In this document: positions 34,074 to 62,775 of the stretch, in pieces
Position numbering within the stretch: the stretch's first letter is position 1
Layout: the number at the start of each line of letters is the position of its first letter
NCBI RefSeq assembly: GCF_007197735.1
Contig: NZ_CP041637.1
Span: 434,001 to 498,000 of the forward strand
Length of the DNA stretch: 64,000 nt
From: Formosa sediminum
Lineage (GTDB): Bacteria > Bacteroidota > Bacteroidia > Flavobacteriales > Flavobacteriaceae
Reading direction: 5' to 3'
Notes under the pieces: generated by a model
The model's input: only the letters and a program-made list of their open reading frames with translations
Told to the model about the DNA's origin: nothing
Databases searched by the model: none
Program-made: the position numbers and the translations under genes

Positions 34074-34125
34074 GTTTGATGTTTTATATCAGTATGTCAT
34101 CAGGAAAGAAAGGAAATTCTCTTGG

Positions 34126-34240
34126 GTTATCTGCCCCTTTGAAAATAGGTTTCATCGAGTAGAATGTAGCACCTTCTTTAAGTGTGGTAAAGGGTTGCTA
34201 AGGCTTCACCGGGTCTATCCCCTCTGCCTTTCGTGATAAC
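34126..34240 (-). promoter_or_regulatory. SAM-I (S-box) riboswitch upstream of metH
   Basis: The minus strand shows the S-box core: P1 GTTATC (34240-34235) pairs with GATAAC (34131-34126). Internal conserved segments include AGAGGGGATAGACCCGGTGA, AGCCTTAGCAACCC and AAGGTGCTACATTCTAC. Binding of SAM should switch off the metH-metF unit. I find no strong hairpin with T-tract between P1 and the ATG 53 bases away, so control may be at translation or by a weak terminator. Confidence 0.92.
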
Positions 34241-34319
34241 GAATTAATATGATTATGAACTATGCTGCAAATAAAGGTAATATATATTTATTTTCCTCAT
34301 ATTTACAGCATTTATTATG

Positions 34320-47239: not shown

Positions 47240-47245
47240 CGTTGA

Positions 47246-47365
47246 GTTATCTATCTAAATCCCCGATAAATGAATCGGTTTTTAAGTAGAATTTAGCACC
47301 TTCTTTATAAATTAAAGGGTTGCTAAGGTTTCAGCGGGTCTAATCCCTCCACCTTTCTTGATAAC
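47246..47365 (-). promoter_or_regulatory. SAM-I (S-box) riboswitch upstream of metY
   Basis: Minus-strand P1 GTTATC (47365-47360) pairs with GATAAC (47251-47246). Between them are the conserved S-box segments GGTGGAGGGATTAGACCCGC, GAAACCTTAGCAACCC and AAGGTGCTAAATTCTAC plus a GC-containing hairpin (AACCGATT with the region ATCGGGGATT). It precedes metY and the metX-thrA fusion, with a terminator directly downstream. Confidence 0.94.
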
Positions 47366-47395
47366 ATTTCAATAAAATATTGAACTTTGTGAGTA

Positions 47396-53617: not shown

Positions 53618-54895
53618 TTATAATTTCGGAAATTTTTCGCTAATGCTATCTAACCCTAGATTGTGAATACTTCCTAAATGCGTGTGTTTTTTAGAATCGT
53701 CTGGCACATAAGTTCCTGCTTCTACTTCGCCACCTATCTTCTTATAAGCATCTCTAAACGACATTCCTTCTACCACCAAAGTATTGATATTATCTACTGT
53801 AAATAAGAATTTATATTTCTCGTCGTGTAAATTAATTTCTTTAACCTTAACCTGAGCAATAGAGAAATTAAAAATATCTAAAATATCTTTCATATCTTCT
53901 AAAGCCTGAATCATGTTTTCCTTTAATAATTGGTAGTCACGGTGATATCCGCTAGGCAAATTATTAGTGATTAACACCATTTCTGTTTGTAGCGCCTGAA
54001 TCTTATTACATTTACCACGAATCAATTCAAATACATCTGGATTTTTCTTGTGTGGCATAATACTACTTCCTGTAGTTAATTCGTCTGGAAAGGCGATAAA
54101 ACCAAAATTCTGACTATTATACAAGCAAATATCCATAGCAAAACGCGATAAAGTGTTTGCTAAACTTCCTAAGGAAGCAGCAATGGTTCGTTCACTTTTA
54201 CCACGACTCATTTGCGCGGCCACTACATTATACTTTAAGGTTGAAAAGCCCATTTCTTTTGTCGTTAATTCACGATCTATCGGAAAAGAACTACCGTAAC
54301 CTGCAGCAGAACCTAACGGATTCTGATCGGCTACTCTTTGTGCCGCTTGTAGCATATACACATCATCAATCAATAACTCGGCATAGGCAGAGAACCAAAC
54401 ACCGAAAGACGACGGCATAGCCACTTGTAAATGCGTGTAGCCAGGTAATAAAGCATCTTTATGGGTTTCGGCTAAACCAATTAAGGTATCGAAAAACGTT
54501 TTGGTTTTGTCCTGTATGGTTTTTAATTCTTCTTTAAAATACAATTGAAGTGCCACTAAAACTTGGTCGTTTCTAGACCGTGCAGTATGTATTTTTTTTC
54601 CTACCTCACCTAAAGATTTTGTCAGTTCAAATTCTATTTTAGAATGCACATCTTCAAAACTCTCTTCTATTTGAAAAGTTCCCGCTTCAATCTGAGCGGC
54701 TAACTCATCTAAACCCCCAAGTAATTGTTCTAATTCTTCAGTAGTAATAATATTAATGCTTTGTAACATTTTAGCGTGAGCTTTAGACGCTATAACATCG
54801 TACTTCGCTATATGAATATCGATTTCTCTATCGTTACCAACAGTAAATTGTTCTATTTTTTTATCTATTGAAAGCCCTTTATCCCAAAGTTTCAT
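53618..54895 (-). CDS. argH: Argininosuccinate lyase
   Basis: A 425-residue fumarase-superfamily lyase that splits argininosuccinate into arginine and fumarate. The family signature GSSIMPHKKNPDVFELIRG and the HTARSRNDQVL segment are intact, along with DVHSKIEFELTK. It is a little shorter than most ArgH proteins. Last gene of the arginine operon, ending at the bidirectional terminator, 45 bases after the ArgE-like gene. Confidence 0.95.
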   Translation of the reverse strand: MKLWDKGLSIDKKIEQFTVGNDREIDIHIAKYDVIASKAHAKMLQSINIITTEELEQLLGGLDELAAQIEAGTFQIEESFEDVHSKIEFELTKSLGEVGKKIHTARSRNDQVLVALQLYFKEELKTIQDKTKTFFDTLIGLAETHKDALLPGYTHLQVAMPSSFGVWFSAYAELLIDDVYMLQAAQRVADQNPLGSAAGYGSSFPIDRELTTKEMGFSTLKYNVVAAQMSRGKSERTIAASLGSLANTLSRFAMDICLYNSQNFGFIAFPDELTTGSSIMPHKKNPDVFELIRGKCNKIQALQTEMVLITNNLPSGYHRDYQLLKENMIQALEDMKDILDIFNFSIAQVKVKEINLHDEKYKFLFTVDNINTLVVEGMSFRDAYKKIGGEVEAGTYVPDDSKKHTHLGSIHNLGLDSISEKFPKL

Positions 54896-54940
54896 AAGTT
54901 AAGATTTTTATAGTTTAAGCTGAACATGCAACTTAAATCA

Positions 54941-56005
54941 TTATAATATTTTTTCTAATAACTGAATGTAAATCGCAACACCTTCTTCAATTTCATTTAA
55001 ATAAATAAATTCGTCTGCAGAATGTGATCGTGTACTATCTCCTGGCCCTAATTTTAAAGACGAACAACTTAAAACAGATTGATCTGATAATGTTGGCGAA
55101 CCGTAGGTGCTACGACCTATTTCGATACCTGCTTTTACCAATTCGTGATCCTTAGGAATAGATGATGAATTTAAGCGTAAACTACGTGCTTTAATCTCTG
55201 TACAAGGCGCTTCTCTTACCAAAATATCGTTAATCTCTGCATTGGTATATTTATCGTTTACACGTACATCTATAACCAATTCTACTTCGGCAGGAATGGC
55301 ATTATGTTGTTTTCCAGCAGAAATCTGAGAGACCGTCATTTTTACATCGCCTAAAGTTTCTGAAGGCCTATCGAATTTATAATTTTTAAACCAATTTAAC
55401 ACCTCTATTGTATTGTAAATAGCGTTATCATCGTTAGGGTGAGCGGCATGACTAGGAGTTCCTTTTACTTTAGCATCAAAAACCACTAAGCCTTTTTCGG
55501 CTACAGCCAAATTCATTAATGTAGGTTCTCCAACTATAGCTACATCTACTTTTGGAATTATAGATAACATACTATTTAAACCATTTGGTCCGCTGCTTTC
55601 TTCTTCGGCAGAAGCCACAATAACCAAATTATATTTTAAGTTTGGCTTATCGTAAAAATAGGTAAATGTTGCAATTAAAGACACCAAGCAACCTCCAGCA
55701 TCATTACTTCCTAAACCATATAATTTGCCATCTTCTACTATAGCTTTAAACGGGTCTTTAGTGTATCCGTTATTGGGTTTAACCGTATCGTGATGCGAGT
55801 TTAAAAGCAGTGTAGGTTTTCCTTCTGTAAAATCTTTATTGGTAGCCCAAACATTATTTTTGGTGCGCGTATACGGAATGTTTTTTTCTTTAAACCAAGC
55901 TTCTATAAGCTCTGCTGTTTTATCTTCTTCTGAAGAAAAAGACTGCGTTTCAATTAAACGCTTTAATAAAGCAATGGCCTCCTCTGTTAATTGTTGCGTT
56001 GTCAT
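54941..56005 (-). CDS. argE: M20 deacylase, N-acylcitrulline/ornithine deacetylase (ArgE-like)
   Basis: A 354-residue zinc peptidase-family enzyme. Metal ligands are seen in LNSHHDTVKPN, GSNDAGGCLVSL, SAEEESSGPNG and RSHSADEFI. In this operon ornithine is carbamoylated while still acylated, so the expected substrate is N-acetyl- or N-succinyl-citrulline rather than N-acetylornithine. The ATG shares one base with the argB stop codon. Confidence 0.9.
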   Translation of the reverse strand: MTTQQLTEEAIALLKRLIETQSFSSEEDKTAELIEAWFKEKNIPYTRTKNNVWATNKDFTEGKPTLLLNSHHDTVKPNNGYTKDPFKAIVEDGKLYGLGSNDAGGCLVSLIATFTYFYDKPNLKYNLVIVASAEEESSGPNGLNSMLSIIPKVDVAIVGEPTLMNLAVAEKGLVVFDAKVKGTPSHAAHPNDDNAIYNTIEVLNWFKNYKFDRPSETLGDVKMTVSQISAGKQHNAIPAEVELVIDVRVNDKYTNAEINDILVREAPCTEIKARSLRLNSSSIPKDHELVKAGIEIGRSTYGSPTLSDQSVLSCSSLKLGPGDSTRSHSADEFIYLNEIEEGVAIYIQLLEKIL

Positions 56006-56781
56006 TAGGCTTGTATGGTTGTGTGTTTTGTATTCTGATTAAATAGCATGTCAGGTTTTCCTAAGCACACTTTACTCACTCGATTAGAAATGGCATAAAA
56101 ACAATTATCTAACTTAGGTAGCATCCCGTCTGTTATAATACCATCTGCTTTTAACGTCTCATAATTTTTTGTGTTAATATCTTCAATTACCGAATTTGCA
56201 TCATTTACATCTAACAATACACCATCTTTTTCAAAACAATAATACAACTCTACTTGATACAAATCTGCAAAAGCAATAGCCAATTCAGAAGTTACAGTAT
56301 CTGCATTGGTATTTAATAATTGTCCGTTTCCGTCATGTGTAATGGCACAAAACACGGGCGTAATATCGTTTTCTAGGAGTACTTTTGGCACTTTGGTGTT
56401 GACGTGTTTTACATCGCCTACAAATCCGTAATCTATAGTTTTTACCGGGCGTTTTTCAGAAACTATTGCATTTCCATCAGCTCCCGTAAACCCGACACTA
56501 TTACACCTATTCGCTTGTAATTGTGCAATAATGTTTTTATTGATTTTTCCGCCGTACACCATGGTAATAATATCTAAAGTATCGCCATCTGTAATGCGTC
56601 TTCCATCTACCATTTGCACTTCAATATTCATGGATTTCGCCATTTTAGTCGCTAATTTCCCACCGCCATGAACTAATATTTTAGGACCTTTAAGTGTAGC
56701 AAAACCTTTTAAGAATTCAGCTAAGGCAGCATCGTCATCAATAATATTACCACCTATTTTTACCACTTTTAATGTTTCCAT
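56005..56781 (-). CDS. argB: N-acylglutamate kinase
   Basis: A 258-residue amino-acid kinase phosphorylating N-acetyl(or succinyl)glutamate. VVKIGGNIIDDDAALAEFLK, KILVHGGGKLATKM and ITDGMLPKLDNCFYAI are the family landmarks. The start chosen is ATG 56781, just after the carbamoyltransferase stop; a TTG five codons upstream is less likely. An arginine-sensing N-terminal extension is absent. It overlaps argE by one base. Confidence 0.94.
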   Translation of the reverse strand: METLKVVKIGGNIIDDDAALAEFLKGFATLKGPKILVHGGGKLATKMAKSMNIEVQMVDGRRITDGDTLDIITMVYGGKINKNIIAQLQANRCNSVGFTGADGNAIVSEKRPVKTIDYGFVGDVKHVNTKVPKVLLENDITPVFCAITHDGNGQLLNTNADTVTSELAIAFADLYQVELYYCFEKDGVLLDVNDANSVIEDINTKNYETLKADGIITDGMLPKLDNCFYAISNRVSKVCLGKPDMLFNQNTKHTTIQA

Positions 56782-56782
56782 A

Positions 56783-57718
56783 TTATAGGTTTTCAAGTAT
56801 TTCTTTCATTACTATTTGTGCAGCGAATGTTCTATTATTAGCTTCTTGCATCACAACAGACTGGTCGCTATCTAAAACAGCATCCTCAACCACAACATTA
56901 CGTCTTACCGGTAAACAGTGCATAAATTTAGCATGACCTAATTTTTCTTTAGTCACCATCCAATTTCTGTCTCTATTTAAAATCTGACCGTAATCTGTAA
57001 AACTACTCCAGTTCTTTGCATACACAAAATCGGCATCTTTAAGTGCCTCATCTTGGTTATAAACTATTGGCGTATCTTTTGTGATTTTAGGGTCAAGTTC
57101 ATAGCCTTCGGGATGTGTAATGGTTAAATCGACCTCCATTTTTTGCATCATTTCTACAAACGAATTGGGTACTGCTTGCGGCAATGCCTTGGGGTGTGGC
57201 GCCCATGTCATTACAACTTTTGGTCGAGCTTTTTCCGATAATTCTGAAATGGTAATCGCATCTGCCAAGGCTTGTAAGGGATGTGCCGTTGCACTTTCCA
57301 TATTTACTATAGGCACAGTGGCATACTTTTCAAAACTTTTAATAACCAGCTCTGCATAATCTTTTTCTTTATCTACTAAAGTTGGGAAAGCACGCACCGC
57401 AATAATATCTGCATATTGCGAAATAACCGCTGCTGCTTCCTTGACATGCTCGGAAGTACTAGCATCCATGACCGTTCCATCTTCAAACTCTAAATTCCAC
57501 GCATCATTTACATTTAAACTCATCACCTCCATTCCTAGGTTTTTAGCAGCCTTTTCTGTGCTTAACCGCGTCCGTAAACTCGAGTTAAAAAACAACATCA
57601 CTAAGGTTTTATTTTTACCTAATTGCTGATGCTCAAAAGGATTCATCTTTAAAAGAATGGCTTCTTTTATAGTTTCTGAAAGGTTCGATATATCTGAAAT
57701 TTGCGTGTATTTTTTCAT
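56783..57718 (-). CDS. N-acylornithine carbamoyltransferase
   Basis: A 311-residue transcarbamylase of the AOTCase/SOTCase type rather than ordinary ArgF. It has FNSSLRTRLSTEKAAKNLGM for carbamoyl phosphate, MTWAPHPKALPQAVPNSF, and FMHCLPVRRNVVVEDAV with Arg-Arg-Asn. The specificity loop reads DASTSEHVKEAAAV; Ser89 appears to sit where B. fragilis SOTCase has Pro and Xanthomonas AOTCase has Glu, which would favour N-succinylornithine. It lies one base from argD and abuts argB. Confidence 0.92.
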   Translation of the reverse strand: MKKYTQISDISNLSETIKEAILLKMNPFEHQQLGKNKTLVMLFFNSSLRTRLSTEKAAKNLGMEVMSLNVNDAWNLEFEDGTVMDASTSEHVKEAAAVISQYADIIAVRAFPTLVDKEKDYAELVIKSFEKYATVPIVNMESATAHPLQALADAITISELSEKARPKVVMTWAPHPKALPQAVPNSFVEMMQKMEVDLTITHPEGYELDPKITKDTPIVYNQDEALKDADFVYAKNWSSFTDYGQILNRDRNWMVTKEKLGHAKFMHCLPVRRNVVVEDAVLDSDQSVVMQEANNRTFAAQIVMKEILENL

Positions 57719-57719
57719 G

Positions 57720-58847
57720 CTATGTTAATTCTGATTTTAAGGCTTCAAAAAAGACATCTAAGTGTTCTTTTTGAATTGTTAATGGCGGAAGTATTCTTAA
57801 TAAGTTAGGTTTTTTAGCACTTCCTGTGAAAATGTGATGGTCGAAAATAAGTTTTTTTCTAAGGTCGGAAATCGGAAAATCGAATTCTAATCCTAACATT
57901 AAACCACGACCTTTAATTGATTTTAATTGTGGTAATGCGTTCGCTTTTTCAATAAAATATGCTGAAATTGCTTTAGTGTGCGCTAGTAAATCTTCTGCTT
58001 TAAGTACATCTAAAACAGCAATTGAAGCTGCACAAGCTAAGTGATTTCCTCCAAAGGTTGTCCCTAACATTCCGAAAGCCCCTTTAATATCAGGATGAAT
58101 TAAAATACCTCCAATAGGAAACCCATTCCCCATACCTTTTGCCATAGAAATAATATCTGGCGTAATATTATGCTTTTGAAATGCGAAGAAATCGCCTGTT
58201 CTACCAAAGCCCGATTGTACCTCATCGGCTATAAAACATGTGTTATACGTTTTACATAATTTTTCAAGACCTTGATAAAATGCGGTTGTGCTTTCGTCTA
58301 AACCACCTACACCTTGAATAAACTCTATAATTACAGCACAAACATCGTTATTTTTTAATGCTTGTTCTACACCTTCTAAATCGCCTAGTTCAAAAAACGC
58401 TACATTTTGTTGGGCGTTTAATGGTGCTACAATTTTAGGATTATCGGTAGCTGCTACTGCAGCAGAAGTTCTTCCGTGGAATCCGTTTTTAAAGGCAATA
58501 ATTTTAGATTTTTCATTATGAAAGGATGCCAGTTTCAAGGCATTCTCATTCGCTTCTGCTCCTGAGTTACATAAAAACAACTGATAGTCTTTACATCCTG
58601 AAAAGTCGGCTAATTCTGCTGCCAATTGTTCTTGCAACGGGTTTTGAATGGCATTACTATAAAATGCAATTTCGTTTAACTGACGCGTTAAACGGTCTAC
58701 ATAGGTTGGGTGCGCATGACCAATTGAAATTACAGCATGGCCACCGTATAAATCTAAATATTCTACATTTTTGTCGTCGTAAACAAAAACGTCTTTCGCT
58801 TTTACAGGGGTAATATCGTAAAGCGGATATACTGGAAACAAACTCAT
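57720..58847 (-). CDS. argD: Acetyl/succinylornithine aminotransferase
   Basis: A 375-residue class III PLP aminotransferase converting N-acylglutamate semialdehyde to N-acylornithine. Motifs are LDLYGGHAVISIGHAHP, FLCNSGAEANENALKLA, IADEVQSGFGRTG and the PLP lysine in DIISMAKGMGNGFPIGG. Ornithine or lysine side activity is possible, as in other ArgD. Its start overlaps proC by four bases. Confidence 0.94.
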   Translation of the reverse strand: MSLFPVYPLYDITPVKAKDVFVYDDKNVEYLDLYGGHAVISIGHAHPTYVDRLTRQLNEIAFYSNAIQNPLQEQLAAELADFSGCKDYQLFLCNSGAEANENALKLASFHNEKSKIIAFKNGFHGRTSAAVAATDNPKIVAPLNAQQNVAFFELGDLEGVEQALKNNDVCAVIIEFIQGVGGLDESTTAFYQGLEKLCKTYNTCFIADEVQSGFGRTGDFFAFQKHNITPDIISMAKGMGNGFPIGGILIHPDIKGAFGMLGTTFGGNHLACAASIAVLDVLKAEDLLAHTKAISAYFIEKANALPQLKSIKGRGLMLGLEFDFPISDLRKKLIFDHHIFTGSAKKPNLLRILPPLTIQKEHLDVFFEALKSELT

Positions 58848-59644
58848 ATTTGTTCTTTTTTAATATTGCTAATTTTATTGTAAGATGCTACCATTCCCTG
58901 AATTAAAGACGAACTCAACCCTTTGTGTTCCATTTCGTTTAATCCTTCAATGGTACAGCCTTTTGGCGTGGTAACCTTATCGATTTCTTCCTCTGGATGA
59001 TTCCCAGTTTGAATAAGTAAACTAGCTGCTCCTTCGCAAGTATGCATCGATAATTCTTGAGCTTCTTCGGCATCGAAACCTAATTGTATTGCCGCTTGAG
59101 TTGTGGCACGAATTAATCGCATCCAAAAGGCAACACCACTGGCACAAACTACTGTTGCGGCTTGCATTTGACTTTCTGGAATAATTAAAGTATGTCCTAA
59201 CCGATTAAATATGGCTTCTGCAATTTTAACACGTTTAGTACCTTGAGTATTACTACAAATACATGTCATAGATTTACCTACAGCAATAGCTGTATTAGGC
59301 ATAGCACGAATTATAAATTGGTTCTCACCAACAATTGCTTCCATTCTAGGAATTAAAAAACCTGTAATGGTAGAAATTAAAACATGTTTCTCTGTTAAAA
59401 ACGGAGTGATTTCTTGCAAAACATTTTCAAAATGTGCAGGTTGCACTGCAAAAATTAAAATATCAGATTTCTGAACAGCTTCAACATTATCACTTGTAAG
59501 AGTTACATTTTTATAACCTTCAAATTCCTGTAACGTTTCAATATTTCTTTTGGTTAAATATAGCGTTGTAAATGCATTATCGATTATTAAACCTTTAGCG
59601 ATAGAATACCCTAAATTTCCAGTTCCAATTATAGCAATTTTCAT
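58844..59644 (-). CDS. proC: Pyrroline-5-carboxylate reductase
   Basis: A 266-residue NAD(P)H reductase making proline from pyrroline-5-carboxylate. IAIIGTGNLGYSIAKGLI is the Rossmann start. IRAMPNTAIAVGKSMT and TTPKGCTIEGLNEMEHKGL are family signatures. Its place inside the arginine operon links proline synthesis to arginine control; proA and proB are not in the window. Confidence 0.94.
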   Translation of the reverse strand: MKIAIIGTGNLGYSIAKGLIIDNAFTTLYLTKRNIETLQEFEGYKNVTLTSDNVEAVQKSDILIFAVQPAHFENVLQEITPFLTEKHVLISTITGFLIPRMEAIVGENQFIIRAMPNTAIAVGKSMTCICSNTQGTKRVKIAEAIFNRLGHTLIIPESQMQAATVVCASGVAFWMRLIRATTQAAIQLGFDAEEAQELSMHTCEGAASLLIQTGNHPEEEIDKVTTPKGCTIEGLNEMEHKGLSSSLIQGMVASYNKISNIKKEQI

Positions 59645-59656
59645 AAGTTAGTTGAT

Positions 59657-60634
59657 TTAGAAATAAGTAGCTTTTAGTTGTATACCTGCTGTCTCTTCAA
59701 ATCCAAACATCAAATTCATGTTTTGGACAGCCTGTCCTGAAGCGCCCTTTAATAAATTATCGATAATACTTGTTACCAATAATTTGTCGTTATGTTTATG
59801 TAAATGAAGGATACATTTATTAGTGTTTACCACTTGTTTTAAATGAATATCTTCATCTGAAACTACTGTAAATTTTGCATCCTTATAAAAAGATTTATAT
59901 AATGTTTTAGCATCTTCTAACGTGCCTTCAAATTTGGTGTAAGCTGTCGCAAAAATGCCGCGTGAAAAATCACCGCGATTTGGCATAAAAATGATTTCTG
60001 AATTAAAATCACTTTGTAATTGCTTTACCGACTGATTGATTTCTCCTAAATGCTGATGCGTAAAAGGCTTGTAGTACGAAAAATTATTATCTCTCCACGT
60101 AAAATGTGTGGTTGCAGATAGTGATGTTCCGGCTCCTGTTGCTCCTGTTACGGCATTTATATGCACATCGTCTTTAAATTTCCCATCTGATGCTAATGGT
60201 AATAAAGCCAACTGAATTGCCGTTGCAAAGCATCCTGGGTTTGCCAAATATTTAGCATTAACAATCGCTTCTTTATTTAGTTCTGGAAGTCCGTAAACGA
60301 ATTCCATACCGTTAAAATTAGCATCGGCTTCTAATCTAAAATCGTTACTTAAATCTATAATCTTAGTCGCATCAGAAAAGCTATTATTTTCTAAAAACGC
60401 TGTAGAATTTCCGTGTCCTAAGCATAAAAATAACACATCTACATCGGCATTAATGGTATCTGTAAATTGTAAATCTGTAGACCCAATTAAATCTTGATGC
60501 ACTTTACTAACAGGATTTCCGGCATTAGACGTACTGTAAATAAAATTGATATTTACCTGTGGATGATACATTAATATTCTAATCAGTTCTCCTGCAGTAT
60601 ATCCTGCGCCTCCTACAATTCCAGCTTGTATCAT
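59657..60634 (-). CDS. argC: N-acyl-gamma-glutamyl-phosphate reductase
   Basis: A 325-residue NADPH-dependent reductase producing N-acylglutamate semialdehyde. GIVGGAGYTAGELIRILMYH starts the protein, the catalytic Cys is in ANPGCFATAIQLALLP, and the His is in THFTWRDNNFSYYKPFTHQ. The ATG overlaps the argG stop by four bases. Confidence 0.95.
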   Translation of the reverse strand: MIQAGIVGGAGYTAGELIRILMYHPQVNINFIYSTSNAGNPVSKVHQDLIGSTDLQFTDTINADVDVLFLCLGHGNSTAFLENNSFSDATKIIDLSNDFRLEADANFNGMEFVYGLPELNKEAIVNAKYLANPGCFATAIQLALLPLASDGKFKDDVHINAVTGATGAGTSLSATTHFTWRDNNFSYYKPFTHQHLGEINQSVKQLQSDFNSEIIFMPNRGDFSRGIFATAYTKFEGTLEDAKTLYKSFYKDAKFTVVSDEDIHLKQVVNTNKCILHLHKHNDKLLVTSIIDNLLKGASGQAVQNMNLMFGFEETAGIQLKATYF

Positions 60635-61812
60635 GACTTTTTATTTACGAGTTGATATATTTTATTCTGGTTTCCAAGTATTTTAATAAATCCTTTAGCA
60701 TCGTCTGCAGTCCACCCTTTATTTTCTTCTCCATAACTAGCAAATGATGAATTCATTAAATCGTGTTTAGACGAAATTCCATCTAAAGAGAAATGATAAG
60801 GCTTCAGCGTAACTACAACATCACCAGAAACATTCTCCTGACTACTTTCTAAAAAGGCCTCCATATCGCGCATTACGGGGTCTAGAAACTGGCCTTCGTG
60901 TAAATGCATCCCGTAAAAACTAGATAGATAATCTTTATGTTGCATTTGCCATTTAGTAAGCGTGTGCTTTTCTAATAAATGGTGTGCTTTTACAGTGATT
61001 AAAGCAGCAGCAGCTTCAAAACCTACACGCCCTTTAATTCCAACAATAGTATCACCAACATGAATATCTCTTCCTATGGCGTACTTTGAAGCAATTTCAT
61101 TTAATGCTTCAATATTTTTTTCTGGTGCAGCTTCGGTTCCGTTAAAAGCAACAAACTCTCCTTTTTTAAAGGTTAATGTTACTTTTTGCTCGTCTGTTTT
61201 TTCTAATTGAGACGGATAAGCTTCGCTAGGTAAAGGTTTTTCTGAAGTTAAAGTCTCTTCTCCACCTACACTAGTGCCCCAAAGCCCTTTGTTTACAGAA
61301 TATTTCGCTTTTGCCCAATTCATATCTATACCATTGGCAACCAAATAATCGATTTCTGTTTGTCTGGCTAATTTCTGATCTCTAATAGGCGTGATAATTT
61401 CAATTTCAGGTGCCAAGATTTGAAAAATCATATCGAAACGCACTTGGTCGTTTCCTGCTCCCGTGCTACCGTGAGCAATATATTTTGCACCAATACTTTT
61501 TGCATATTCAACTATTTCTATAGCCTGAATAATACGTTCTGCACTTACCGATAATGGATAAGTATTATTTTTTAATACATTACCAAATATTAAATATTTT
61601 ACAACTTTGTTATAAAATGTAGCAACTGCATCTATATTTTTATAAGTAGTCACGCCCATTTTATAAGCGTTACTTTCTATATGACTAATCTCTTCTTTAG
61701 TAAAACCGCCGGTATTAACACTTACGGCATGAACATCGTACTCTTTTGATAAACTTACAGCACAATATGATGTATCTAAACCTCCACTGTATGCTATTAC
61801 TAATTTTTTCAT
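60631..61812 (-). CDS. argG: Argininosuccinate synthase
   Basis: A 393-residue PP-loop ligase joining citrulline and aspartate with ATP. The loop is LVIAYSGGLDTSYCAVSL. AHGSTGAGNDQVRFD and NKGLWGTSVGGEETLTSE are also family features, the last of these in a short-branch form common in Bacteroidota. It lies 13 bases after the GNAT gene. Confidence 0.95.
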   Translation of the reverse strand: MKKLVIAYSGGLDTSYCAVSLSKEYDVHAVSVNTGGFTKEEISHIESNAYKMGVTTYKNIDAVATFYNKVVKYLIFGNVLKNNTYPLSVSAERIIQAIEIVEYAKSIGAKYIAHGSTGAGNDQVRFDMIFQILAPEIEIITPIRDQKLARQTEIDYLVANGIDMNWAKAKYSVNKGLWGTSVGGEETLTSEKPLPSEAYPSQLEKTDEQKVTLTFKKGEFVAFNGTEAAPEKNIEALNEIASKYAIGRDIHVGDTIVGIKGRVGFEAAAALITVKAHHLLEKHTLTKWQMQHKDYLSSFYGMHLHEGQFLDPVMRDMEAFLESSQENVSGDVVVTLKPYHFSLDGISSKHDLMNSSFASYGEENKGWTADDAKGFIKILGNQNKIYQLVNKKS

Positions 61813-61825
61813 GTTGATATTTGTG

Positions 61826-62434
61826 TTATTTTTTTAAAAACAAATGTTCCTTAATGCTTTTTAATCGATTAAATACTTTAGACTTAACTGGTTTTTGGTC
61901 TTTTGGAGGCTGCTTATCTGGATCGTACAACATACCTGTACATAAACACATTTTTTGTTCTGTACGTTGTAAAACGTCATAATTCTTACACGTTTGGCAA
62001 CCTTTCCAAAAGGTCTGATCGTCTGTTAATTCTGAAAATGTAACGGGTTTATACCCTAGATCTGAATTCATTTTCATAACAGGCAATCCTGTAGTAATAC
62101 TAAAAACTTTAGCTTTAGGATATTTTGTTATAGAATGATTGAAAATTTTATGTTTAATTTCTTTAGCTAACCCTCTATTTCTAAAATCAGGATGTACAAT
62201 TAAACCTGAGTTTGCTACGAATTTCCCATGTCCCCAAGCTTCAATATAGCAGAAACCCGCAAACTTACCATCCTCTAAAGCGATAACGGCATTTCCATTA
62301 ATTATTCTTTGTATGATATACTCGGGCGTTCTTTTTGCAATCCCTGTACCTCTTACTCTAGCAGAATCTGCTATAGTTTCACAAATAATTTCAGCATAAA
62401 CTGTATGCGACTTGTCTGCAATAACAATTTCCAT
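61826..62434 (-). CDS. GNAT acyltransferase, probable N-acylglutamate synthase
   Basis: A 202-residue GNAT protein at the head of the arginine operon. The acetyl-CoA loop is VHPDFRNRGLAKEIKHKIF. Near the C-terminus a cysteine group (KGCQTCKNYDVLQRTEQKMC, then LC) suggests a metal site and is followed by a Lys-rich tail. No other argA or argJ is present, so it is the likely first enzyme, acylating glutamate with acetyl- or succinyl-CoA. Direct proof from sequence is lacking. Confidence 0.8.
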   Translation of the reverse strand: MEIVIADKSHTVYAEIICETIADSARVRGTGIAKRTPEYIIQRIINGNAVIALEDGKFAGFCYIEAWGHGKFVANSGLIVHPDFRNRGLAKEIKHKIFNHSITKYPKAKVFSITTGLPVMKMNSDLGYKPVTFSELTDDQTFWKGCQTCKNYDVLQRTEQKMCLCTGMLYDPDKQPPKDQKPVKSKVFNRLKSIKEHLFLKK

Positions 62435-62507
62435 TGTTTTGATTTTAAAATTAAAAAGTTAAAAAGTATTGATTTCTAGAAATAGAACTGGACACACCTA
62501 AAAGTTC

Positions 62508-62585
62508 CTAAAATATAAAGCACCCTAACGGGCGGCGCAATACAATAGGGCGTAACATAAAGCGATTATTATTTAAAATAACCAT
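62508..62585 (-). CDS. Arg-rich leader ORF 2 of the arginine operon
   Basis: A 25-codon ORF starting at the ATG at 62585, 74 bases before the GNAT gene. Arg codons are at positions 8, 12, 17 and 18, all CGC; the core reads LRPIVLRRPLG. The core resembles that of leader ORF 1 and its DNA shares the ATTGxATTGCGCCG block. CGCCCTA and TAGGGTG within it can form a 7-bp helix (one wobble) around the paired Arg codons. Likely an arginine sensor of the attenuation type, though translation is not shown. Confidence 0.6.
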   Translation of the reverse strand: MVILNNNRFMLRPIVLRRPLGCFIF

Positions 62586-62667
62586 ATGTTGTGTGTAAAA
62601 TGTATAAAGTGATGTAATCAAAATAAAAAAATAAATACGTGAAATTAGGTGAACAACTCTAGAAGAT

Positions 62668-62742
62668 TTAGTGTGCACTGCGGCGTCGGCGCAATGCAAT
62701 TGCGGGACTAGATGGACGTATTATATTTTTAATAAGAATCAT
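62668..62742 (-). CDS. Arg-rich leader ORF 1 of the arginine operon
   Basis: A 24-codon ORF starting four bases after a consensus -7 box. Residues 9-22 include RPSSPAIALRRRRS: four consecutive Arg codons CGC CGA CGC CGC at positions 18-21 plus one at 9. All are CGN codons that one tRNA-Arg should read. Its position, composition and operon fit a translated leader that senses charged Arg-tRNA. A T-rich stretch follows about 40 bases after the stop, but I see no strong GC-rich hairpin before it. Confidence 0.65.
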   Translation of the reverse strand: MILIKNIIRPSSPAIALRRRRSAH

Positions 62743-62746
62743 AAAC

Positions 62747-62775
62747 CAAATGTACAAATTAATTCAATATATCAA
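62747..62775 (-). promoter_or_regulatory. Promoter of the arginine operon
   Basis: TTG (62773-62775), 18-base spacer and TACATTTG (62747-62754) match the Bacteroidota consensus exactly. The ATG of leader ORF 1 is only four bases past the -7 box, so the transcript may begin at or near that ATG. Together with the two leader ORFs it accounts for the 361-base gap 62435-62795. Confidence 0.7.

Follow-up and report, generated by a model that had tools for sequence, protein, structure and literature searches.

Why two short arginine-rich reading frames should stand in tandem ahead of the arginine biosynthetic genes of Formosa sediminum, and what they might do there, is the question raised by this locus. 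In the 64,000 nucleotides of DNA analyzed here (the window), the pair had been read as a double leader, seemingly duplicated, that senses arginine-tRNA upstream of an argG-first operon. The operon proved to begin with the gene of a GNAT acetyltransferase, followed by argG and further arginine genes (Table 1; argG, argD and argE score under the curated cut-offs of their best models), and its upstream neighbour is an aldehyde dehydrogenase gene. Both Arg leaders thus precede an arg biosynthetic operon, the position expected of cognate leaders. On the comparisons described below, we propose that the 5' leader of this GNAT-arg operon may be a two-step, ribosome-operated arginine sensor, and give this reading a probability of about 0.48, just short of even odds.

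Table 1. Coordinates of the leader region, its elements and the downstream genes (positions in the window)
Feature	Position	Strand	Basis
Leader region	between aldehyde dehydrogenase gene end (62796) and GNAT gene start (62434)	-	gene coordinates
Promoter -7 box, TACATTTG	62747..62754	-	sequence; spacing kept in relatives
Leader ORF A, 24 codons	62668..62742	-	ATG 62742, stop ending 62668
Helix L, 5' strand (start of leader A)	62716..62730	-	fold and partner-swap test
Arg codon 9 of leader A, within helix L 5' strand	62716..62718	-	comparison
RRRR, codons 18-21 of leader A	62680..62691	-	sequence
Helix L, 3' strand (U-rich; -19 to -6 of leader B start)	62627..62640	-	fold and partner-swap test
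Leader ORF B, TTG start, 37 codons, end ..LRRPLGCFIF	62508..62621	-	conserved start; frame
Hairpin P0, within leader B	62563..62584	-	fold; covariation
Hairpin P1, over last Arg and Pro codons of leader B	62521..62534	-	fold; RNA model
Hairpin P2, loop AGGUGUGUCC	62484..62508	-	fold; RNA model; held-out loci
GNAT acetyltransferase, operon gene 1	61826..62434	-	Pfam PF00583 above cut-off
argG, argC, proC-like, argD, N-acetylornithine-type carbamoyltransferase, argB, argE-like, argH	53618..61812	-	profile matches

Of 298 genomes from the family, 196 encode the operon's GNAT protein; the copy in F. algae KMM 3553 is 98% identical to that of the window. For the main set, 100 upstream regions from these 196 genomes were taken among the best matches listed, some being skipped without a rule; argG lies downstream of the GNAT gene on the same strand in all 100 and in the window. 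A held-out set of 80 named loci was reduced to 66 by dropping previously used loci and duplicates. The loci come from related species, so that counts are not numbers of independent events. Alignment A1 comprised 95 of 101 loci, and alignment A2 contained one spurious row (a second L081 match, E 0.71). The consensus fold and covariation analysis of leaders with A and B was performed on 41 of the 54 loci with an ATG-started leader A, omitting 13 outliers or loci with long spacers as well as the false L072; the consensus fold of leaders without A was based on 23 loci.

Leader A (ORF 1; MILIKNIIRPSSPAIALRRRRSAH) was found as predicted, with its 24 codons and the run of four Arg, and is the only one of 356 ATG-started ORFs of 15-40 codons in the window with at least 4 Arg in 6 codons. 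Its start at a promoter was likewise borne out: the Bacteroidetes -7 box ends 4 nt ahead of the ATG. An ATG-started, Arg-rich leader of 18-24 codons near -300 was detected in 54 of 101 upstream regions (55 were initially listed, of which L072 was judged false and removed) and a GTG-started one in 6 further regions (L095 weak), giving 60 of 101; in the held-out set, leader A is present in 47 of 66 loci, and 44 of these keep the 4-nt box spacing in a search that permitted 2-8 nt. The pattern TAnnTTTn stands exactly 4 nt before leader A in 40 of 54 loci and 4-6 nt before it in 48, at a background rate of 46 in 701 windows; no TAnnTTTn was found within 20 nt upstream of leader A in 4 of the 54. 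For F. psychrophilum, a -7 box consensus of TAnnTTTG and a leaderless share of 5.5% of the mRNAs examined are given (PMC9723704). As the box lies only 4 nt before the start, the leader A mRNA is probably leaderless, with transcription from or beside its AUG. Leaderless attenuator leaders occur in other phyla.

Over the final eight residues of leader A in the 54 loci, Arg accounts for 199 of 432 positions and is written with all of six codons, 146 times with CGC, a codon that makes up 10.8% of Arg codons in the long ORFs of the window. Codon 9 encodes a further Arg in 40 of the 54, and one of codons 8-10 does so in 46. The Arg codons of leader A are conserved in relatives with synonymous variation, which excludes one of the conditions that would have refuted the original reading, a lack of such conservation. 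By eye, the leaders of family f37 (L149-L152, L172, L173, L176, L177, L179, L186) and many of genus g127 often use CGG, the rarest Arg codon in the long ORFs of the window (2.9%), where leaders of the window's own family use CGY instead.

ORF 2 had been taken to run over 25 codons from ATG 62585 to the stop ending at 62508 (MVILNNNRFMLRPIVLRRPLGCFIF), with RR at 17-18 plus R8 and R12. This frame and these residues are present, and the frame is longer. In 54 of the 60 leader A loci the P1 frame could be placed, and in 52 of them a TTG (29), GTG (19) or ATG (4) lies 27-29 codons before the last Arg with the frame open in between (29 codons in 34 loci, 28 in 16, 27 in 2). In the window, this conserved start is TTG 62621. 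The corresponding held-out count covered 75 loci, without removal of previously used or duplicate ones. A second peak of the distance distribution, 24 loci at 7 codons, represents an internal ATG. ATG 62585 was dropped as the start of leader B, given the conserved start and the same-genus locus L003, which has no ATG in frame; ATG 62558 was dropped after the conserved TTG/GTG/ATG position had been found. A TTG-N16-TA pattern between A and B, considered by eye as a second promoter, holds the B start codon; a promoter may also lie there.

The penultimate Arg position of leader B is Arg in 92 of 96 frames (CGT 69, CGC 20, CGA 3); the last Arg is CGC in all 96, as the search was built to require. 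Taken alone, ORF 2 is not exceptional: RR together with at least 4 Arg is found in 9 of 356 short ORFs of the window, a frequency that would suit an Arg richness arisen by chance, with conservation owed to, for example, promoter or spacer sequence. Against this, Arg runs, start positions and pairing all recur in the held-out loci, which makes a chance origin very improbable; judged by comparison between loci, ORF 2 is real. Leader A is missing from 41 loci. In 27 of these, an in-frame ATG for B follows a promoter box at a distance of at most 12 nt (exactly 7 nt in 19 of them); a further 12 have the ATG with no box, and the remaining 2 lack an ATG.

Beyond two Arg-rich ORFs, to which the original prediction was confined, the leader contains the RNA parts P0, P1, P2 and helix L. 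Hairpin P0 covaries (39 double-changed cells vs 13.2, 0/500; 41 loci). The last Arg codons of leader B sit in the 5' arm of hairpin P1, usually CGCCC-GUAA-GGGUG. Its pairing is supported by CGCAC combined with GUGCG in four loci (L085, L087, L095, L098) and by one UA pair, and otherwise largely by invariance; covariation of P1 was not seen in the 41-locus set, where it is too invariant. In short folds of the window, the register GCGCC:GGUGC outcompetes P1, and the fold of domain B is hardly better than shuffles (z -1.19, 23/200). The stem of P2, which carries the loop consensus AGGUGNGUCC, covaries, with a mean longest run of 6.23 vs 4.85 for arm swaps (maximum 5.15 of 200; 97 loci). RNAalifold on A2 failed to show this stem due to shifted columns, and P2 was then tested anchored on the loop. 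Together, P1 and P2 have 64 double-changed cells vs 19.0 (0/500) in a model-fitted alignment, which is biased to its own structure. The linker from P1 to the loop is U-rich and measures 17-25 nt in 92 loci. Pairing of the P2 loop with Arg codons, and its likeness to the complement of the 16S 3' end, were noticed by eye and given no weight.

With a covariance model of P1 and P2 (R1), 99 of 100 sources were matched at E values of at most 0.0056, most of them having also been used to build the model; the single miss is L026, L021 and L030 are weak, and L100, tested separately, was matched. P1/P2 were found in 62 of 66 held-out loci. A general element was ruled out for the genome of F. sediminum itself, where the motif has one convincing match, the second scoring only E 6.45, and the two remaining AGGTGNGTCC sites fall within open reading frames. 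In an order-wide sample, R1 was found in 16 of 246 genomes, once each, with strict filters by which weak matches may be lost; 53 loci from g127 and other families gave no match. No Rfam family reached its gathering score in the leader of the window, which gave one chance-level CRISPR match (E 1.3) and no match to T-box, Flavo-1 or any other Rfam covariance model; in five other loci, nothing was found at E 1. Elsewhere in the window, the minus strand carries two SAM riboswitches (47244-47367 and 34124-34242; Rfam RF00162).

Several loci depart from this arrangement. In L013, L037, L039 and L045, short palindromic insertions (e.g. TTCCTG...CAGGAATC) were noticed by eye between P2 and the GNAT gene, with P1/P2 intact; as they lengthen the spacer, a fixed distance from P1/P2 to GNAT appears unnecessary. 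Twelve g127 loci (L136, L138-L143, L145-L147, L157, L158) have a TTG-started ORF of 61-63 codons that extends from a point behind helix L to the GNAT start, ending at -1 or +4; this suggests that translational coupling takes the place of a P1/P2 leader there. In L160, L162 and L166 of the same genus, where R1 has no match, a P1-like CCGTAAGGTC and a diverged P2-like hairpin were seen by eye, and L160 and L166 have a TTG-started frame of 29-31 codons ending in ..IRP-stop; these are possibly diverged B modules.

The near invariance of P1 and the P2 loop, the single match in the genome and the absence of a strong terminator could also be expected of an RNA that binds a ligand or a protein and controls the operon by itself, with the leader ORFs secondary. 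We regard this as improbable: the Arg codons are kept with synonymous change both in A and before P1, and the leaders of g127 and f37 retain Arg without a match to the P1/P2 model. Equally small is the likelihood we assign to an arrest peptide, in which the terminal RRP-stop of B, or the Arg run of A, would sense free arginine within the ribosome and block release. Stop-codon arrest peptides are known in TnaC and SpeFL, and 85 of 96 B frames have Pro-stop directly after the last Arg. The other 11, that of the window included, end otherwise, so that a conserved C-terminal residue with stop is not found throughout; P1 accounts for the same letters, and the end of leader A is different.

The first codons of leader A are complementary to a U-rich segment past its own stop (helix L). 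Fold predictions contain the helix both for the complete leader (-56 kcal/mol, z -2.76, 0/100 shuffles) and for domain A (z -2.43, 2/200 shuffles). Its mean pairing score in leader A loci is 26.07, and none of 200 partner swaps equals it (mean 24.12, maximum 25.66); helix L being AU-rich, the score is partly compositional, as the swap mean shows. For the held-out loci, the score is 25.24 vs a swap mean of 21.69 (maximum 23.05; 0/200 equal). In the 41-locus alignment, 17 double-changed cells were counted where 7.6 are expected (0/500), and pair types were not above shuffles (175/500). Outliers such as L055, L087 and L008 form the same pairing with different letters. The leaders of g127 contain a similar helix (24.12 vs 22.48, 0/200 swaps equal); for f37, a score of 19.67 vs a swap mean of 17.65 (maximum 19.73 of 300) is suggestive only.

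Over 48 loci, the 3' strand of helix L lies at a median of -24 to -4 relative to the start of leader B, with 78% of its bases in the footprint -20..+15, and an Arg codon contacts the 5' strand in 35 of the 48 leaders and in none of the other 13. Helix L is absent from loci without leader A, both from 27 chosen by rule (37/200 swaps equal) and from 23 picked by hand (40/200 swaps equal), as expected if it couples A to B. Pairing of the start of A with the initiation region of B is supported by comparison; stalling on A that frees this region, as in erm-type two-leader attenuators, would be its proposed function.

These data bear on whether A and B might be two independent Arg-tRNA attenuators in series, helix L being merely a terminator-like structure of A with low GC and a U-tract. 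U-runs in its 3' strand, a similar helix in g127 leaders and the occurrence of each module alone elsewhere would accord with that arrangement. We consider it rather unlikely, since the 3' strand keeps a constant position ahead of the conserved start of B, and B-type leaders that lack A also lack this strand.

Whether A and B are copies of one leader can be judged from the same parts. The block ATTGxATTGCGCCG occurs in both ORFs, as claimed, and in the same frame. The claimed motif P-x-I-x-L-R-R does not hold exactly, the two stretches being one residue out of step (PAIALRR vs PIVLRR), and reduces to I-x-L-R-R; three positions of the block are changed in the B copy of the same-genus locus L003. 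A-like leaders without a match to P1/P2 exist in g127 and f37 (e.g. MQNTLAHRIDFIPVRPIPRRR), and at class level there are other leaders ending in Arg. On a GNAT tree, P1/P2 leaders without A make up one clade of 23 with support (100/96) and are otherwise scattered, and 47 of 51 rows with A and B fall in a single clade of 61 (99/94); the tree is rough, with labels for ATG-started leaders only and unsettled bootstrap, and some "B-only" rows have a GTG-started leader A. L026 retains leader A with P1/P2 absent, a natural A-only variant inside the A+B clade. As their RNA parts differ and the modules occur apart, A and B are not duplicates. The observation behind the original prediction is thereby partly confirmed and its interpretation partly supported, as far as sequences can tell: Arg codons are conserved synonymously ahead of an arg operon, in keeping with sensing of Arg-tRNA by a double leader, whereas the two modules are unlike and the second starts from TTG.

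The first reading of the locus had noted no obvious strong terminator, and none was found ahead of the GNAT gene. Only P1, with 5 pairs, is terminator-like here, and a weak or Rho-dependent terminator may exist; nor did the consensus folds contain a GC-rich terminator past P2 or a conserved strong one anywhere in the arg leader. The P1 piece amounts to -7.5 kcal/mol vs -16.5 kcal/mol for the terminator of the ilv leader of the same genome. The latter was observed upstream of ilvD (G000:C1:503533-505152, minus strand; L193), where an Ile/Val-rich leader, MHMKKYLVNIISISVVVIRS, is followed by the strong intrinsic terminator AAGCCTTCCATTTTTATGGAAGGCTTTTTTT. Upstream of hisG (G000:C1:3134206-3134745, minus strand; L192), the His leader MNFIQFHHHHFHTCT is followed by a CCCC..GGGG hairpin and T-run resembling an intrinsic terminator (AACCCC...GGGGTTTTT). 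Since these two leaders appear to be of the usual type, ordinary-looking attenuators exist in the organism, and the arg leader is built differently.

In the two-step sensor, four features are inferred from the arrangement of the parts: initiation on a leaderless mRNA, ribosome stalling, a gating of B through A, and the sign of the response. When charged Arg-tRNA is low, a ribosome would stall on leader A, either at Arg codon 9 or in a queue behind the Arg run near its C-terminus; queueing is assumed since a ribosome on RRRR alone would not cover the 5' strand of helix L. Covered by the stalled ribosome, this strand would leave the U-rich initiation region of B open. B would then be translated, and its ribosome, held up at the last Arg codons, which belong to the 5' arm of P1, would block P1 and keep the operon on. 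With ample arginine, the ribosome would leave A, helix L would shut the initiation region of B, P1 and P2 would form, and expression would fall. The masking of both structures would follow from the location of Arg codons, which in helix L and in P1 lie within the 5' strand or close to it, where a ribosome awaiting Arg-tRNA would sit. For F. johnsoniae, tuning of initiation by mRNA structure close to the start has been described (PMC6847099); with such tuning, a helix over the initiation region of B would let A gate B. A biosynthetic operon is expected to be on when arginine is scarce, so P1 open would mean on and P1 closed off. Candidates for the output of P1/P2 are weak intrinsic termination, which the U-rich linker behind P1 would allow, Rho, mRNA decay, or a binding factor. 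More tentatively, we picture a switch of two unlike modules, in which the leaderless 5' end of A gates B and the last codons of B set the new P1/P2 motif, operating with no strong terminator and perhaps with a factor that reads the P2 loop.

The leader can be compared with several known systems. With the trp, his and ilv attenuators, those of this genome included, it shares a short cognate-rich ORF before a biosynthetic operon and hairpins within or after the ORF, and it has a conserved leader ORF enriched in cognate codons and overlapped by RNA pairing with compensatory change, weak for P1. It differs from them in having no strong intrinsic terminator that we could find, two ORFs, a long-range helix between A and B, and a conserved P2 loop. 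Among erm translational attenuators, ermA has two leader peptides. Two leader ORFs, ermBL and ermBL2, likewise stand upstream of ermB and are both required for induction, the function of ermBL2 being left open in that report (PMC8274638); in that system a macrolide acts as signal and a single resistance gene is controlled, here the codons are cognate and the target is a biosynthetic operon. In orf34 of Salmonella speF, consecutive Arg codons sense arginine by ribosome pausing and alter mRNA structure, with Rho involved and an intrinsic terminator absent, as the arg leader lacks a strong one (PMC6386406). The likeness to orf34 is one of description, and orf34 differs as a single ORF with a Shine-Dalgarno sequence before an ornithine decarboxylase gene. 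Arg codons in the uORF rbfL of S. aureus pause ribosomes at low arginine and affect a nearby initiation site (PMC13009471); in that single leader of 8 residues, pausing covers the downstream site and represses, whereas the arg leader is proposed to open a site.

Closest in lineage, F. psychrophilum belongs to the same family, and leader-peptide attenuation has been proposed for its amino-acid operons, along with structured 5' elements without Rfam match (PMC9723704); the main text of that paper does not mention argG, and overlap with its supplementary tables may exist. In B. thetaiotaomicron, mapping has revealed sORFs that resemble leader peptides (PMC7366714). Among the open-access papers searched, none on an arginine leader in Flavobacteria was listed. 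Given the Arg-codon leaders of speF and rbfL and the two leader peptides of ermB, the kind of control is already known; as far as the literature search goes, what is new are unlike arginine leaders in series with a coupling helix, and the P1/P2 motif.

If the proposal holds, the arg leader would be a serial circuit in which one amino-acid leader gates the translation of the next, set in a phylum in which ribosomes work without Shine-Dalgarno sequences and mRNA structure tunes initiation. For the Flavobacteriaceae, P1/P2 add an RNA motif without Rfam match, and relatives with a single module are natural variants in which the two halves can be tested separately. The circuit would, if true, explain how arginine operons of Bacteroidota can sense arginine at the RNA level.
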